DNA from: Limimonas halophila
GTDB taxonomy: Bacteria; Pseudomonadota; Alphaproteobacteria; Kiloniellales; Rhodovibrionaceae
Length of the DNA stretch: 64,000 nucleotides
Assembly: GCF_900100655.1 (NCBI RefSeq)
Contig: NZ_FNCE01000001.1
Span: forward strand, 434,001 to 498,000
Direction of reading: 5' to 3'
The notes under the pieces are model-generated. The model did not search any database, had not been told where the DNA came from, and saw nothing but the letters and a program-made list of their open reading frames with translations. A program made the translations under genes and the position numbers. Shown here in pieces: positions 29,115 through 35,481 of this stretch. Numbering within the stretch: position 1 is the first letter of the stretch; the number at the start of each line of letters is the position of its first letter.

Positions 29115-29392
29115 CATAGGTGTGCTCACCGAGCGGCAACGACAACAAGCCGGGGATGTATCAGCGGGATCTCGTCAGGGTTCTTTCTCCTTTACAGTAT
29201 CGGGCTTCTTTTTCGGAAACAGGCGTGGGGGGCTATGACGACACGCATTCATCGCCTGAAAGCCAGATAACACGGCCATGACGGTTTGGGGCGGACGTTC
29301 TTAATTCTTTACGGTCGCCTTCCGTTGCGGCTGCCCACGGCTTTATTATAGAATTATAAATTATACTATAAAGCAGTATGGAGGGTTTGGAT

Positions 29393-29800
29393 ATGATTGA
29401 CGAGCGTGCTGATCCGAAGCTTGTCAAAATGTTCTCGGATTATATAAATCAAGAAGACGTTCGAGATGCGTTTTTTTATCTTATTGGAATTTCTGCCTCG
29501 TTAGAAAAATACAAATGTATACCGAAAGCCGTCAAAAACGATAAAAATAAGAAAAGCTTCAAAATCCGTAATGTAAAAACGGAAAAGGATGAATTTTCAT
29601 TTATTGTTAATAGAGAATCCATTTTGTTTTATATAAGAAAGCCAGCTTTGGATTCCGGATTTTATGATTTTGACAAAATAAATAATATTTTCGGATGCAC
29701 TGAAAACAATCTAGGTGAGTGGGAGGTTCGGATATTGACCACAAAGGACGCTAAATCGTTGTGGCAATATCTGGAAAAATGCAATCCAAAATTCACCTAA
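29393..29800 (+). CDS. AT-rich orphan protein
   Basis: A 135-aa soluble, Lys/Asp/Asn-rich protein that I do not recognise. The C-terminal part (WEVRILTTKDAKSLWQYLEK) looks like a small α/β domain. The ATG at 29393 has GGAGGG 7 bp upstream; an ATG at 29378 overlaps that site and is less likely. Base composition is sharply lower in G+C than the flanks, as are the upstream 60 bp (with TATACT at 29362–29367, a possible -10). It is bracketed by a palindromic element at 29050 and the dispersed repeat at 29843. All this points to recent acquisition. The 357 bp before it hold that palindrome and nothing else I can name. Confidence 0.65.
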   Translation: MIDERADPKLVKMFSDYINQEDVRDAFFYLIGISASLEKYKCIPKAVKNDKNKKSFKIRNVKTEKDEFSFIVNRESILFYIRKPALDSGFYDFDKINNIFGCTENNLGEWEVRILTTKDAKSLWQYLEKCNPKFT

Positions 29801-31140: not shown

Positions 31141-32100
31141 ATGCCTGACGACGCCGCCAGCCGCAGCGAGGCGGAGGCGCGCACGGTCAAGCGCGCCCAG
31201 CCCAAGACGGTCGATCAGGCCACGCTGGACCAGTACTGGGTGCGGCCGGCGCCGCAGGATCCGAGGCTCACGCAATGGGTCCACGGCGTCGACCAGGACG
31301 ATCAGCCCATCGAGACGCCGGTGGTGATCGAGCGCCCGCTGACGATCTTCCTCAACGACCAGGAAATCGTCACGGCGATGACGGTCAACGACTACCCGGA
31401 ATACCTCGCCGTCGGCTTTCTCTTGAACCAGAACATGCTGCGCCCCGACGACGTGCTGGAGGGCGTGGACTACGACGACGAGCTGGAGGTGGTGGTCGTG
31501 CGCACCCAGCGCGCGACGAACTACGAGGAAAAGCTGAAGAAGAAGACGCGCACCTCCGGCTGCGCCCAGGGCACCGTCTTCGGCGACATCATGGAGAGCT
31601 TCGAGTCCATCGCGCTGCCGACGAACACGGAGATCCGCACCTCCTGGCTCTACGAGTTGACGAAGACGATCAACGCCACGCCCAGCCTCTACCTGGAAGC
31701 CGGGGCCATCCACGGCTGCGTGCTGTGCAAGGAGAACCGGCCGCTGCTCTACATGGAGGACGTCGGCCGCCACAACGCCGTCGACAAGATCGCCGGCTAC
31801 ATGTTCCGGCACGGGATTTCCGCGGGCGACAAAACCTTCTACACCACGGGGCGGCTGACCTCGGAAATGGTGATCAAGACGGTGCAGATGGGCATTCCCG
31901 TGCTGATGTCGCGCTCCGGCTTCACCGCCTGGGGCGTTGAGCTGGCGCGCCAAGCCGACCTGACGCTGATCGGGCGCGCCAAGGGCAAGCGCTTCATGGC
32001 GCTGGCGGGCGAGCACCGAATCGTGCGCGACGCCGACCCGTCGCAGGTGAGCGAGGAAGACCCCAAGCACCAGCGCAAGGCGGGGCGCGGCGATGGCTGA
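31141..32100 (+). CDS. fdhD: formate dehydrogenase sulfurtransferase FdhD
   Basis: Transfers sulfur from the cysteine desulfurase to the molybdenum centre of formate dehydrogenase. The 319-aa product has the family core (IEREPLTIF-type strand, GFLLNQNMLRPDDVL), the Cys pair in IHGCVLC and the MEDVGRHNAVDKIAGYMF segment. The N-terminal 50 residues are an unusual charged extension. The ATG at 31141 follows GGGGAGG; the long open frame upstream overlaps the divergent dehydrogenase and is a shadow. It overlaps mobA by 8 bp. Confidence 0.94.
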   Translation: MPDDAASRSEAEARTVKRAQPKTVDQATLDQYWVRPAPQDPRLTQWVHGVDQDDQPIETPVVIERPLTIFLNDQEIVTAMTVNDYPEYLAVGFLLNQNMLRPDDVLEGVDYDDELEVVVVRTQRATNYEEKLKKKTRTSGCAQGTVFGDIMESFESIALPTNTEIRTSWLYELTKTINATPSLYLEAGAIHGCVLCKENRPLLYMEDVGRHNAVDKIAGYMFRHGISAGDKTFYTTGRLTSEMVIKTVQMGIPVLMSRSGFTAWGVELARQADLTLIGRAKGKRFMALAGEHRIVRDADPSQVSEEDPKHQRKAGRGDG

Positions 32101-32731
32101 ACGGCTGGACAAGGTCTGCGGCGTGCTGCTGGCGGGCGGCAAGTCGCGGCGCATGGGGGGCGGCGACAAGGCCCTGCGCGAGCTCAACGGCCAAACGCTG
32201 CTGGCCCGCATCCGCGACCGCGCGGCGCCGCAGGTGGACCGCCTCGTCATCAACGCCAACGGCGATCCGGCGCGCTTCGACGGCTACGGCCTGCCGGTGA
32301 CGCCGGACGTGGTCGAGGGCTACGCCGGCCCGCTCGCGGGCGTGCTGACGGGCATGGAATGGGCGGCAGCGAACGCGCCCGACTGCCGCTGGATCGCCAC
32401 CTTCGCCTGCGACGCGCCCTTCTTCCCGCCGGACATCGTGGACCGCCTGCTGCGCGCGGTGGACCGCGAGGACGCGGACCTCGCCTGCGCCGCCAGCCAG
32501 GGCCGCAGCCACCCCGTGTTCGGGCTGTGGCCGGTGCGCCTGCGCGACGACCTGCGTGCGGCCGTGGTGGACGAAGAGATCCGCAAGGTGGACGTCTGGA
32601 CCGCCCGCCACCGCCTGACGACCGTGGACTTCCCCCTTATCGACACACCCACCGGCCCCCTCGACCCCTTTTTCAACACCAACCACCCCGACGATCTGGC
32701 CGAAGCGGAGCGGGTGTTGGGCGATAAATAA
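32093..32731 (+). CDS. mobA: molybdenum cofactor guanylyltransferase MobA
   Basis: Adds GMP to molybdopterin to make the MGD cofactor used by formate dehydrogenase. The 212-aa product has the nucleotide-binding loop GVLLAGGKSRRMGGGDKAL, the metal-binding FACDAPFFPPD and FFNTNHPDDL near the C terminus. It overlaps fdhD by 8 bp, so the two are coupled. The foreign, AT-rich block begins immediately after its stop. Confidence 0.95.
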   Translation: MAERLDKVCGVLLAGGKSRRMGGGDKALRELNGQTLLARIRDRAAPQVDRLVINANGDPARFDGYGLPVTPDVVEGYAGPLAGVLTGMEWAAANAPDCRWIATFACDAPFFPPDIVDRLLRAVDREDADLACAASQGRSHPVFGLWPVRLRDDLRAAVVDEEIRKVDVWTARHRLTTVDFPLIDTPTGPLDPFFNTNHPDDLAEAERVLGDK

Positions 32732-32738
32732 GATTGAC

Positions 32739-32751
32739 GCTACGAGCGCAT
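32739..32751 (+). repeat. left imperfect direct repeat flanking the AT-rich gene
   Basis: GCTACGAGCGCAT, 8 bp after the mobA stop, matches GCTACAAGCGCGT at 35108–35120 in 11 of 13 positions and the same orientation. The pair brackets the AT-rich gene. It could be an insertion-site duplication or chance. Confidence 0.3.
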
Positions 32752-32804
32752 CTTTGTTTTCCATACCCAAAAGATCCAGAAGCGGTTTCTAAAGGGCTGA
32801 CAAC

Positions 32805-35102
32805 ATGAGTGACTATAACTTATCAAAGCTTTCATCATTAGACTTCGAGGAGTTGATCCTTGATCTTCTGAAAGCAGAATGGAGTGTGCGAATCGAATCC
32901 TTTACGTCCGGAAAAGACAAAGGAATCGATCTTCGCCATACTTCTCTAAAAGGTGGTTCCGTAATCGTTCAATGTAAGCACTACGAGAGATCTGGATATA
33001 AACGGCTATTGAACAATTTGATTGAAAACGAGTATAAGAAAATAAAAGCATTGAATCCAGAGCAATATATAGTGGTTACGTCTGTACCGCTAACCCCGCA
33101 TAAGAAGGACGAGATTAAGGAATCGTTAGAGCCGTACGTACAATCTCCCCAAGATATATACGGACGAGACGAGATAGAGGCGCTGATCCGGCAAAACCCG
33201 GACGTGGAAAAGAAGCATTATAAACTTTGGCTAACGAGCACAGCAGTCTTAGAGAATATAGTTCACGCGGCAGAGAGCTTCAACATAAGTTCTGAAATTG
33301 AGCGAATACAGGAAAAGTTACCGGTCTTGGTCCAAACTGACGCGTACGGCCGTGCGCTCACAAAGCTTGAAGAAAATAATGTTGTTGTTGTTACCGGTGC
33401 GCCTGGAATTGGCAAAAGTACTTTGGCCGATATGCTTATATTAAGTCATATACAAATGAATTATGAGCCTATTATTGTAGAATCTGATATAAAGGAGGCT
33501 AAAAATATGTATAAGAAAGACAAAAGACAAGTTATATATTTTGATGATTTTTTAGGAAGAACATTTTTGGGCGAACGAAAAGAGTATCTTGGAAAAAATG
33601 AAGACCAGTCTGTTTCACGATTTATTGATATAGTACAAAGAAGCTCTAATAAGCGTTTTATACTTACGAGCCGAGAGCATATTTTTCGAGATGCACTTGG
33701 CATTTCGGACCGATTCGCGCATATTAATTTGTCAAAGCGGAAATGTGTAATTACATTGGATGATTATGATCGATGGCATAAAGGAAAAATGTTGTTTAAT
33801 CATTTATATTTCAGTTCTGTGCCACCGCAGTTTCTAGAAGAAATAATGCGAGACAATTTTTTCTTGGAAATTATCGATCATCCAAATTTCAATCCTCGTG
33901 TGATTGAGTGGCTATCAAACTATGAGGAGGCGCATGCTGTAGGCCTGAAAAATTATCAATCTCATATTAAAAATTTAATGGATTATCCCGAGAGGATATG
34001 GAACCATGCGTTTGACCATCAAATTGATGATGCATCGCGTAATATTCTTTTCACCCTTTACACCTTGGATTCGACAGCATCACTCGAACATTTAGAACAT
34101 GCGTTCATAAGTTTGCATAAATATTGTCGAGAGCAATACAACTGTAGTTGGAGGAAAAATGATTTTTCGTCTGGAATAAAAAAAATAGAAGGGTCGTTCA
34201 CAAAAACAGGAAAAAAGGAGGTCTCGTTTATTAATCCGTCGGTAGAAGACTTTATTGAATACCGATTAGTCGAGAATACGGGAAATATTGATGATATTAT
34301 TAAATCGTGTGTTGCTACGAAACAGTTGAGAGTTTTATGGAATTTAAGGAAAAAATACAATGGAGCCCGTATTGTAGAAAAGTTTAGGGAAAAGAAGTCC
34401 GATGTGTCCAAGAAGCTAGTAGAAGTTATAAATGAAAGTCCGATTAAAATAGAGCAAAAAGATGGTAGTGTTTTGTCTAGTGTCGTGGATGACGATGCAG
34501 AAGATAAGATTGGATTCCTGAAAGGATTAACAAGAGAGGTCAGCCTTAATAATATTGATAAAATTGTAGAACTTTTAGTAGAGCGGGTATTGAAAGAAAT
34601 TAATTACTGGACGCATTTTCAGTATGTTCTAGTGGATTGTACAAGTCTTATGGATGAAATAGGTTATATTGAGAGCGATAGAATTGTAGATGCAAAGGAA
34701 CGAATAACAAGTGCGATTGAAGATAATTTAAACGAAACGAGTGCAGGAGATTGGGAGATCGTTCTTGAAGGTGATTATATGAATGTGATCGAGCGTTATA
34801 TTGGAGAAGAAGTTGTTTATAGTGCTGTCGAACATTACGTTCGTGAAGGTGCGGTTGAAGAGATTAGGTTATGTGATGATGAAAATGCTCTTGTAGAATT
34901 GGGGGAGCAACTTGATAGGCTAGAAAAACGATATGGATTGGGCCTGACTGAGAGTATTGAAACTTTAAATGAGAAGCTAGCCGAGATGGAATCTGGCGAG
35001 CAAGAGCTGAATGAAGGTGGTTTGCGAAGTAGGCAATTGCGAGAGCCGGAAAAGGTGAGTGACGAAGAGTTGGTGGAACTGTTTCGAGGGTTGTGGGAAT
35101 AA
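32805..35102 (+). CDS. Mrr-like nuclease–STAND NTPase fusion (putative defence protein)
   Basis: A 765-aa protein. Residues 10–130 form a restriction-endonuclease (Mrr-type PD-D/ExK) domain: DFEEL (E15/E16), KGIDL with D42, and VQCKH with Q56 and K58. A linker (YGRDEIEALI, KLWLTSTAVLE) leads to a P-loop NTPase with Walker A GAPGIGKST (198–206), Walker B QVIYFDDFLG and a sensor-like FILTSREH, of the novel STAND (nSTAND3) type. The remaining 450 residues are helical with no named domain, in the place where STAND proteins carry their sensor. The architecture resembles Avs-type antiphage proteins; activity is inferred. Base composition is far more AT-rich than the host, as expected for a horizontally acquired gene. 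Confidence 0.85.
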   Translation: MSDYNLSKLSSLDFEELILDLLKAEWSVRIESFTSGKDKGIDLRHTSLKGGSVIVQCKHYERSGYKRLLNNLIENEYKKIKALNPEQYIVVTSVPLTPHKKDEIKESLEPYVQSPQDIYGRDEIEALIRQNPDVEKKHYKLWLTSTAVLENIVHAAESFNISSEIERIQEKLPVLVQTDAYGRALTKLEENNVVVVTGAPGIGKSTLADMLILSHIQMNYEPIIVESDIKEAKNMYKKDKRQVIYFDDFLGRTFLGERKEYLGKNEDQSVSRFIDIVQRSSNKRFILTSREHIFRDALGISDRFAHINLSKRKCVITLDDYDRWHKGKMLFNHLYFSSVPPQFLEEIMRDNFFLEIIDHPNFNPRVIEWLSNYEEAHAVGLKNYQSHIKNLMDYPERIWNHAFDHQIDDASRNILFTLYTLDSTASLEHLEHAFISLHKYCREQYNCSWRKNDFSSGIKKIEGSFTKTGKKEVSFINPSVEDFIEYRLVENTGNIDDIIKSCVATKQLRVLWNLRKKYNGARIVEKFREKKSDVSKKLVEVINESPIKIEQKDGSVLSSVVDDDAEDKIGFLKGLTREVSLNNIDKIVELLVERVLKEINYWTHFQYVLVDCTSLMDEIGYIESDRIVDAKERITSAIEDNLNETSAGDWEIVLEGDYMNVIERYIGEEVVYSAVEHYVREGAVEEIRLCDDENALVELGEQLDRLEKRYGLGLTESIETLNEKLAEMESGEQELNEGGLRSRQLREPEKVSDEELVELFRGLWE

Positions 35103-35107
35103 TCGCA

Positions 35108-35120
35108 GCTACAAGCGCGT
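35108..35120 (+). repeat. right imperfect direct repeat flanking the AT-rich gene
   Basis: GCTACAAGCGCGT, 5 bp after the stop of the AT-rich gene and only a few bases before the point where similarity to an XRE regulator begins. See the left copy at 32739–32751. Confidence 0.3.
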
Positions 35121-35122
35121 GA

Positions 35123-35224
35123 TCAGGTAAGGGGGGAAGGGCTGATATTCGCGGCTTCCGCCAGGTCCTGCTGCGACCAGTCGAGAAAGCCGCGTGCCGC
35201 CCGGCATTGGTCGCGGCGGATCAT
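35123..35224 (-). pseudogene. truncated duplicate of the XRE regulator
   Basis: A 33-codon frame whose first 25 or so codons repeat the start of the neighbouring XRE gene almost exactly (RRDQCRAARGFLDWSQQDLA). After N-I-S-P-S the similarity fades and a TGA follows at 35123, so only half of the HTH remains. Its ATG overlaps the stop of the intact copy (ATGA). The break lies at the edge of the AT-rich block, which suggests that the insertion cut a tandem copy. Confidence 0.7.
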
Positions 35225-35481
35225 GTGGTCGTCGTATGTGTTTGGGCGTCGCCGGTTTGGGCGGCGGCGCGACAGACGCACGGCGTATCGCCGTTCCTGA
35301 ACGTGAGTCCCGCCTGCTCGAACGCCGCCCGGATCGCGTTGAGGTTGTTGCTGATCGGGTCGCGGCGGCCTTTCTCGAAATCGCGGACGGTGGAGAGGCT
35401 CACGTTCGCGGCGTCCGCCAGATCCTGCTGCGACCAGTCGAGAAAGCCGCGTGCCGCCCGGCATTGGTCCCTGCGCAACAT
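35221..35481 (-). CDS. XRE-family helix-turn-helix regulator
   Basis: An 86-aa DNA-binding protein with one Cro/CI-type HTH (SQQDLADAANVSLSTVRDFE) followed by KGRRDPISNNLNAIRAAFEQAG and GLTFRNGD, a C-terminal pattern frequent in small alphaproteobacterial XRE proteins. The ATG at 35481 starts at the duplicated block; an in-frame ATG at 35538 would add 19 residues and overlaps the presumed operator. It is divergent from the gene at 35593. Confidence 0.82.
   Translation of the reverse strand: MLRRDQCRAARGFLDWSQQDLADAANVSLSTVRDFEKGRRDPISNNLNAIRAAFEQAGLTFRNGDTPCVCRAAAQTGDAQTHTTTT

Follow-up and report, generated by a model that had tools for sequence, protein, structure and literature searches.

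A 64,000-nt stretch of the Limimonas halophila genome (contig NZ_FNCE01000001.1, positions 434,001 to 498,000; hereafter the window, numbered from its first nucleotide) carries an AT-rich segment with a single gene, whose product joins an Mrr-like nuclease domain to an nSTAND3 NTPase domain and a helical C-terminal half. Residues 1-681 of the product match the PADLOC candidate PDC-S73 (PDLC05079) in the same domain order and over nearly the full length of the model (positions 1-688 of 752, E = 1.7e-164). Given this near full-length match, the family is already catalogued as a phage-defence candidate, and the assignment of the window protein to it as a new member is well supported. We propose that the protein is probably a single-gene, Avs-like STAND immune sensor of the PDC-S73 class, whose nuclease domains would cluster when it is triggered, and we predict that it acts against phages. 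This analysis ties a widespread candidate defence family to Avs-type sensors, and its effector to a nuclease domain reported to be activated by clustering. The member itself was to be expected; the new parts, which deserve the attention of specialists, are a conserved C-terminal tail and a small helix-turn-helix (HTH) gene that marks AT-rich genes in this genome.

Domain architecture and relation to Avs proteins

The gene had been described from the letters alone as a single reading frame of 765 codons between mobA and a broken regulator gene, and this held. The open reading frame (ORF; 32805-35102, plus strand) runs from an ATG start to a TAA stop without an internal stop codon, beginning 73 nt past the stop of the gene that we take to be mobA (32731) and ending 26 nt short of the matched part of a truncated small HTH gene. 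In the Pfam scan, Mrr_cat was matched by residues 7-105 (E = 1.6e-7, 31.9 bits against a cut-off of 21), followed by nSTAND3 (Table 1). We aligned the protein with its homologues in two sets, A1 with 23 rows and A2 with 41 rows (the window protein and 40 sequences from other records), and prepared a C-terminal alignment, A5. Both the nuclease residues D42 and Q56-x-K58 and the P-loop GAPGIGKST picked out by the sequence-only reading are present, the latter as G198-T206 inside the nSTAND3 domain. The columns invariant in A1 include D42, Q56, K58, G198, G201, G203, K204, D247, D248, R290, H359, P364, R365 and W399, among others, and in A2 all these positions are likewise either invariant or conserved at 90% or more.

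The roughly 450 residues behind the NTPase, said to lack a named domain, gave no Pfam match past the cut-off when residues 341-585, 484-765 and 565-765 were scanned separately. This part is not uniform, however: it begins with a conserved helical region, residues 337-483, in which H359, P364-R365, P395, W399 and P478 are invariant in A1 and for which a winged-helix-like role may be inferred, and the truly variable sensor is limited to residues ~484-735. A match of the sensor to DnaG_DnaB_bind (E = 0.0016) lay below the Pfam cut-off and was not trusted. Neither the Pfam scans nor the fold search revealed a C-terminal domain of housekeeping function.

Table 1. Features of the nuclease-STAND gene and its surroundings (window coordinates)
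Feature	Position	Strand	Basis or remark
PDC-S73-type gene: Mrr-like nuclease, nSTAND3 NTPase, helical sensor, conserved tail	32805..35102	+	765 aa
N-terminal Mrr_cat nuclease domain, residues 1-130	32805..33194	+	Pfam 7-105
Nuclease residue D42	32928-32930	+	alignment
Nuclease residues Q56-x-K58	32970-32978	+	alignment
nSTAND3 NTPase, residues 176-336	33330..33812	+	Pfam E 2.7e-48, above cut-off
Walker A, residues 198-206 (G198-A-P-G-I-G-K-S-T206)	33396-33422	+	
Walker B, residues 247-251 (D247-D-F-L-G251)	33543-33557	+	
Conserved helical region after the NTPase, residues 337-483	33813..34253	+	alignment A1, model
Variable sensor, residues 484-735	34254..35009	+	predicted alpha-helical array, ~12-15% pairwise identity
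Polar linker, residues 734-746	35004..35042	+	pLDDT <50
C-terminal helical tail, residues 753-764 (DEELVELFRGLW)	35061..35096	+	alignment, model
mobA (presumed name)	32093..32731	+	fdhD-mobA order kept in relatives' regions
Imperfect 13-nt direct repeat, left copy	32739..32751	+	11/13 match
Imperfect 13-nt direct repeat, right copy	35108..35120	+	11/13 match
Truncated small HTH gene	35129..35224	-	32 codons match residues 1-32 of the complete paralogue; truncated where the AT-rich segment ends on the right
Intact small XRE-type HTH gene, directly beside the truncated copy	35224..35481	-	

The nuclease domain is also matched by the PADLOC models of Argonaute-associated (Aga) effectors (residues 3-161, E = 6.5e-45), and two Aga-type proteins from other genomes are 34% and 41% identical to it, one of them carrying a TIR domain behind the nuclease according to Pfam. 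These nuclease domains are homologous, but the match to Aga effectors ends at residue 161-175: only positions 2-158 of the 639-position Aga model are covered, the remaining APAZ/PNTD-type part finds no match, and the window protein couples its nuclease to a STAND NTPase instead. The D-QxK triad of the window protein corresponds to D41/Q60/K62 of DREN, the SPARDA nuclease, which an excerpt of PMC12205087 describes as inactive when it is a monomer on its own and as a collateral nuclease when it forms a tetramer within a filament. Since DREN is reported to be switched on by tetramerising and the triad is the same, we propose by analogy that the nuclease domains of the window protein would likewise be activated by clustering.

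AlphaFold2 modelled the full-length protein from the 41-row alignment with a mean predicted local distance difference test score (pLDDT) of 84 and a predicted template modelling (TM) score of 0.70. In a Foldseek search with this model, the top rows were Avs4 with portal (E = 5.5e-9), EfAvs5 (1.4e-7) and Avs3 with terminase (2.6e-7), accompanied by a STAND-TPR protein, an AVAST5 filament and the plant NLR RPP1. The TM-scores of these rows were 0.11-0.35, and the likeness to Avs proteins is therefore at the level of domains only. The best 50 rows from VIA-align, which probes mainly residues 150-480 of the full model, held AAA+ proteins and plant NLRs and no Avs chain.

The nuclease-STAND-helical sensor plan is common to the window protein and to Avs4 and Avs3, whose solved chains are bound to phage portal and terminase, but those chains are 1534-2028 residues long against 765 here. 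More broadly, the effector-STAND-sensor order of AVAST systems (Avs1-5) is also that of the window protein. The subtype of its NTPase is shared with Avs5, a SIR2-nSTAND3-repeat protein of similar length in which nSTAND3 is the predicted NTPase, as stated in the text excerpt of PMC12931631; the effector of Avs5 is SIR2, whereas that of the window protein is an Mrr-like nuclease. A further likeness, by description, is to STAND proteins with Mrr_cat effectors and C-terminal repeats, which the excerpted part of PMC9122126 reports as cargo of the antiphage hotspot of P4 satellites. The effector-STAND-sensor interpretation offered by the sequence-only reading is supported by the domain matches, the PDC-S73 match and the Avs4, Avs5 and Avs3 folds, as well as by some defence neighbours and the patchy presence of the family, which are described below.

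The same evidence bears on another explanation, namely that the protein is a type IV restriction enzyme whose NTPase and C-terminal part would steer the nuclease to modified or structured DNA with no protein ligand. It shares the Mrr_cat nuclease with the Mrr type IV enzymes, many plasmid records annotate its homologues as 'restriction endonuclease', and weak profile matches to McrB, confined to the P-loop, were obtained. In Mrr type IV enzymes, however, an N-terminal winged-helix reader precedes the nuclease, while in the window protein the nuclease begins at residue 7 and leaves no room for such a domain; no reader passed the Pfam cut-off or appeared among the best 25 of 37 Pfam rows. Furthermore, the NTPase is of the nSTAND3 type, Avs proteins and NLRs have the most similar folds, and the helical array of the C-terminal half diverges rapidly. 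We consider type IV restriction very unlikely.

According to the mechanism that we propose for an Avs-like sensor, the resting protein would be inactive, its nSTAND3 domain holding nucleotide. The C-terminal helical array, perhaps together with the tail, would bind a phage or plasmid product, or a host complex disturbed by the invader. The ATP-bound NTPase domains would then form oligomers in which the N-terminal D-QxK nuclease domains meet, and the assembled nucleases would cut DNA, and perhaps RNA too, without sequence specificity. By this course, in which we infer ligand sensing, oligomerisation, nuclease activity and abortive infection, the infected cell would be stopped from yielding phage.

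Divergent sensor and conserved C-terminal tail

The rows of A2 share a mean pairwise identity of 40% over the nuclease and 37% over the NTPase, 12-14% in residues 486-750, and 24% in the last 15 residues; A1 repeats this pattern along the protein. When the C-terminal 282 residues were modelled alone (pLDDT 85), they formed an array made almost entirely of helices, with one small hairpin. This model had no significant fold match in the PDB (best Foldseek E = 0.18). The best VIA-align result (Z 10.8, root mean square deviation 6.4-8.0) is in the range of common helical repeats, and no named fold was assigned. Three long variants (loci L104, L108 and L110 in our numbering of homologue loci; 1152-1190 aa) have the nuclease and NTPase in common with the rest and larger C-terminal parts, as if sensors had been swapped.

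The variable sensor is followed by a linker with pLDDT under 50 and then by a tail predicted to be helical at residues 753-764, in which F760 and L763 are the only columns of A5 conserved at 90% or more. The pLDDT of the tail is 94 in the full model (residues 751-760) and 84 in the C-terminal model (754-763), and the higher value in the full model would fit docking on the N-terminal half. Of the 63 members, 40 fit a strict tail motif and 51 a looser LFxxL-type motif; among 1567 other ORFs of at least 150 aa from the same loci, the counts are 3 and 24. These patterns were written after the tails had been seen, and the control ORFs are mechanical, many of them not genes; two that resembled C-terminal fragments of the family were removed, which changed 5/1569 into 3/1567. 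Fisher p-values on the tail counts ignore relatedness and are descriptive only. Twelve members do not fit the loose pattern: in L074, L082 and L102 an LFxxL or LFxxI lies at a more internal position, and L058, L071, L081, L083, L085, L086, L090, L093 and L100 have no internal LFxxL/LFxxI.

Four members (L074, L082, L085 and L093) end exactly in D[DV][LV]PF, compared with 1 of the 1567 other ORFs, and this sole control ORF encodes a DUF4062 protein adjoining a member. Such ends resemble the C-terminal tip of SSB. The best SSB match ends in D[DE][DE][IV]PF in L. halophila itself, as it does in the hosts from Xanthomonas, Sphingomonas, Bradyrhizobium and Mesorhizobium. The Flavobacterium host of L085 has three SSB-like proteins, two of which end in [DN]DLPF. 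No such end was seen in additional SSB-like matches from Xanthomonas and Mesorhizobium. This comparison covered hosts other than that of L093. The tip of L074 (VDVPF) is the least SSB-like of the four. As the tip-bearing members stand at three places in the homologue tree and their sisters are without the tip, a repeated gain of the SSB-tip-like end is likely, though the sisters may instead have lost it. In the window protein, the LFxxL tail is present and the SSB-like tip is absent.

The tail could serve for internal docking, as an oligomer contact or in binding a host partner. A bolder idea, which we regard as unlikely though worth stating, is that helical LFxxL tails on a disordered linker and, in separate lineages, SSB-tip-like ends tether the family to hubs of replication or repair, such as the SSB-binding pocket or a clamp-like partner, while the helical array reads phage proteins that attack or replace these hubs; the tail would then be what the receptor guards or hangs on. 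If this were true, PDC-S73 would be a class of STAND receptors guarding the replication fork, and its trigger would be sought among phage proteins that interact with SSB and the replisome. In any case, a short conserved tail could help to reveal the sensed ligand, and the SSB-tip-like ends offer a concrete class of candidate partners. None of the papers listed by literature searches on SSB tips with defence and on STAND tails deals with this family; LFxxL as a motif lay outside these searches.

A DUF4062 protein directly beside one homologue (L096:6297-7493, minus strand) ends in NLDDDIPF, like the C-terminal tip of SSB, and a DUF4062 gene adjoins the L052 homologue as well. SSB-tip-like ends may be commoner in defence proteins.

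Distribution and gene neighbourhoods of the homologues

The gene is present in single copy in its own genome. At the family level its own genome alone, among three, has a relative, and at the class level 5 of 385 genomes match the window protein, three of them weakly. In the phylum, 9 of 398 genomes including L. halophila have PDC-S73 matches at E<1e-90; a looser tally of 125 consists mostly of short P-loop matches. The alignment scan found at least 48 GTDB loci, whereas a scan of genome contigs with the single protein found no relative. At least two relatives lie on viral contigs. Searches of PDB sequences returned P-loop and low-complexity matches and no relative among the best 60 of 283 rows and another 50 rows, and PHROGs gave weak P-loop matches only.

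Homologues are patchily distributed over at least eight phyla, judged from the titles or labels of their records. In A2, the 40 rows besides the window protein are labelled Pseudomonadota, Bacteroidota, Actinomycetota, Campylobacterota, Cyanobacteriota, Planctomycetota and Melainabacteria, except one unlabelled row from a viral contig; titles add Acidobacteria (L094), Paenibacillus (L104) and a Chlorobiota plasmid (L037), and several of the sources are metagenome bins. In the tree, homologues group loosely by phylum, with 9 label changes against a minimum of 6. The window protein, which is 23-35% identical to the aligned homologues, lies near, not close to, members from Xanthomonas and Acetobacteraceae (best 46% over the nuclease-NTPase part). 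Six homologues (L036, L059, L094, L099, L109 and L111) are split over at least two ORFs, by frequent loss or by sequencing errors.

We looked for defence genes beside the homologues. Sixteen of 20 listed plasmid regions, out of 44 records, were opened; the other four (H10, H16, H17 and H20) seemed nearly identical to regions among the sixteen. At L036 the annotation shows a DUF1837 and DEAD helicase pair and an AAA and helicase pair, which we take to be the Hachiman and Gabija plans, and at L052 it shows SIR2 and HsdR-type genes. Other plasmid homologues adjoin AbiEii/AbiEi, TrlF, HEPN, CHAT, NACHT or patatin-like phospholipase genes, and some adjoin toxin-antitoxin pairs, insertion sequence elements and integrases. 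The surroundings of L056, L059 and one side of L062 are chiefly metabolic, transport or unnamed genes. The Prosthecochloris homologue (L037:6099-8529), on a conjugative plasmid, lies near a diversity-generating retroelement with avd, reverse transcriptase and formylglycine-type genes.

Among GTDB loci, a GajB protein (E = 4e-260) adjoins the L076 homologue and a partial MkoA match the L082 homologue. The neighbour scan covered 87 of 177 prepared ORFs, at 11 of 22 loci, and yielded 178 PADLOC families at 1e-15; of the 25 families listed, GajA models match three ORFs and GajB models two. As a single OLD-type protein matches 111 PADLOC models (at 1e-4), the count of 178 is inflated. For the control, 94 ORFs were prepared and 83 used; they came from seven mobA regions and from L138, a region of the own genome that is itself an HTH place; five of the 83 match PADLOC at 1e-15, all to one generic family, mad3. 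The survey for defence islands thus produced clear cases at L036, L052 and L076, and a signal that is modest when counted by ORF.

An alternative is that the protein acts mainly on plasmids or other mobile elements, as a weapon of conjugative plasmids that would be triggered by a conjugation or replication protein of a rival. Homologues occur in 44 of 72,556 plasmid records, 30 of the 44 being typed as conjugative, and the genes at L038 and L053 lie within about 3 kb of repC; only 2 of 50,697 phage records have a match. On the other hand, many homologues are on GTDB contigs, several of which are chromosomes or very large contigs, and antiphage-type genes adjoin some of them. As the mechanism would be the same and only the trigger different, sequence cannot separate this alternative from an antiphage role; we judge it rather unlikely.

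The antiphage reading also has to be set against several observations. A PADLOC match at 1e-15 was found in 2 of the 10 nearest downstream ORFs, one of them partial, against the 5 of 83 control ORFs, and the sample is small. At the L. halophila locus, the neighbours are metabolic genes and small HTH genes, as read by translation. No AVAST model was among the six PADLOC families that match the window protein at E up to 1, a scan in which HMMER filters can drop weak matches; the PADLOC library presumably holds AVAST models. The sensor model is without a significant PDB fold match, as described above. Finally, the literature searched, supplements being outside the search, contained no paper that names PDC-S73 and no phage, plasmid or biochemical assay of the family. 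In the same literature nSTAND3 is named by two papers, one of them on Avs5. The sequence-only reading had missed the listing of the family as a candidate system.

The locus and the small HTH genes

The AT-rich segment spans ~32.6-35.2 kb, from the mobA stop into the remnant of the small HTH gene. The nuclease-STAND gene has a G+C content (GC) of 38.1% and a third-position GC (GC3) of 35%, compared with 66-72% and 89-94% for five genes nearby and a window mean GC of 68% (500-bp blocks). The coding strand shows a very strong G-over-C skew of 0.44-0.49 at 34250-35000, the C-terminal third of the gene, above that of its first half. The composition is therefore as foreign as the sequence-only reading had said, but tells us little about when the gene arrived: at 39 of 40 homologue loci the gene is richer in AT than the flanking DNA, by a mean of 8.5 points. 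We rejected low GC as proof of recent transfer, since a family-wide trait is weak evidence of recent import and cannot date the arrival.

We also considered that the gene is a silent or decaying passenger, spread horizontally and without defence value in this host. Its GC is very low relative to the host, the other two genomes of the family have no relative, and a truncated regulator copy adjoins it. Against this, the frame runs uninterrupted through all 765 codons, the catalytic and Walker residues are present and conserved in 40 homologues, and low GC, being family-wide, is not a sign of decay. A mere passenger is, in our estimate, very improbable.

We compared the locus in other genomes of the order, 28 of which carry mobA. 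In eight of the nine regions read, fdhD and mobA are adjacent, and the ninth, a short contig, carries only mobA; neither the nuclease-STAND gene nor the HTH was found in any of the nine. The fdhD-mobA regions of relatives, lacking both genes, fit insertion or gain in L. halophila, and the precise empty site was not seen among them. The gene likewise shows no conserved presence in relatives at the family, class or mobA-locus level. The imperfect direct repeats near the borders of the segment match at 11 of 13 nt (p = 0.026, mononucleotide shuffles), which is too weak to claim a transposition scar, and do not recur as a flanking pair at other HTH places. A promoter scan found no consensus site on the plus strand upstream of the gene start, Rfam gave nothing above threshold over 28-38 kb, and the window has no tRNA or tmRNA that could be the insertion site.

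The small HTH family has 13 matches in the genome, including the truncated copy, at 11 places (in the window and in L138-L146). All 11 were read, and a 500-bp block of <50% GC lies within ~1.2 kb at 10 of them, compared with one such patch in 20 other 20-kb stretches of the same genome (hand-placed at round positions, 395 kb unmasked). Besides the PDC-S73 gene, the patches contain genes for an OLD-type nuclease (E = 5e-202), for a type II methylase and endonuclease (a pair, E = 4e-105 and 4e-71), for DUF7830/CoiA-like, SEC-C and DUF6338 proteins and for unknowns. At 3 of the 10 patch places the genes include recognised or candidate defence genes, and 3 of 10 non-window patch proteins scanned, from two places, match PADLOC. 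Orientation varies from place to place.

In five other genomes of the order, an AT-rich patch lies within ~1 kb at 1 of 11 HTH regions, where the threshold was the lower of 50% and the regional mean minus 12 points and some regions end at contig ends. The HTH family was therefore dropped as a general marker of AT-rich genes, and its link to the patches is a trait of this genome or lineage. The HTH protein may regulate the cargo, or its gene may mark a favoured site. In L. halophila its paralogues mark AT-rich genes, some of them for defence, and so provide a way to list further candidates in this genome.

An additional AT-rich patch in the window, at 29.1-30.1 kb, has no HTH gene of this family beside it. 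A second AT-rich orphan ORF (29378-29800, plus strand; 140 aa, GC 34%) lies 3.0 kb upstream of the nuclease-STAND gene. It has no Pfam, PADLOC or NCBIfam match at E up to 1 and a weak PHROG match (E = 0.007), and beyond its own genome 1 of 190 genomes in the class sample holds a relative, with 31% identity.

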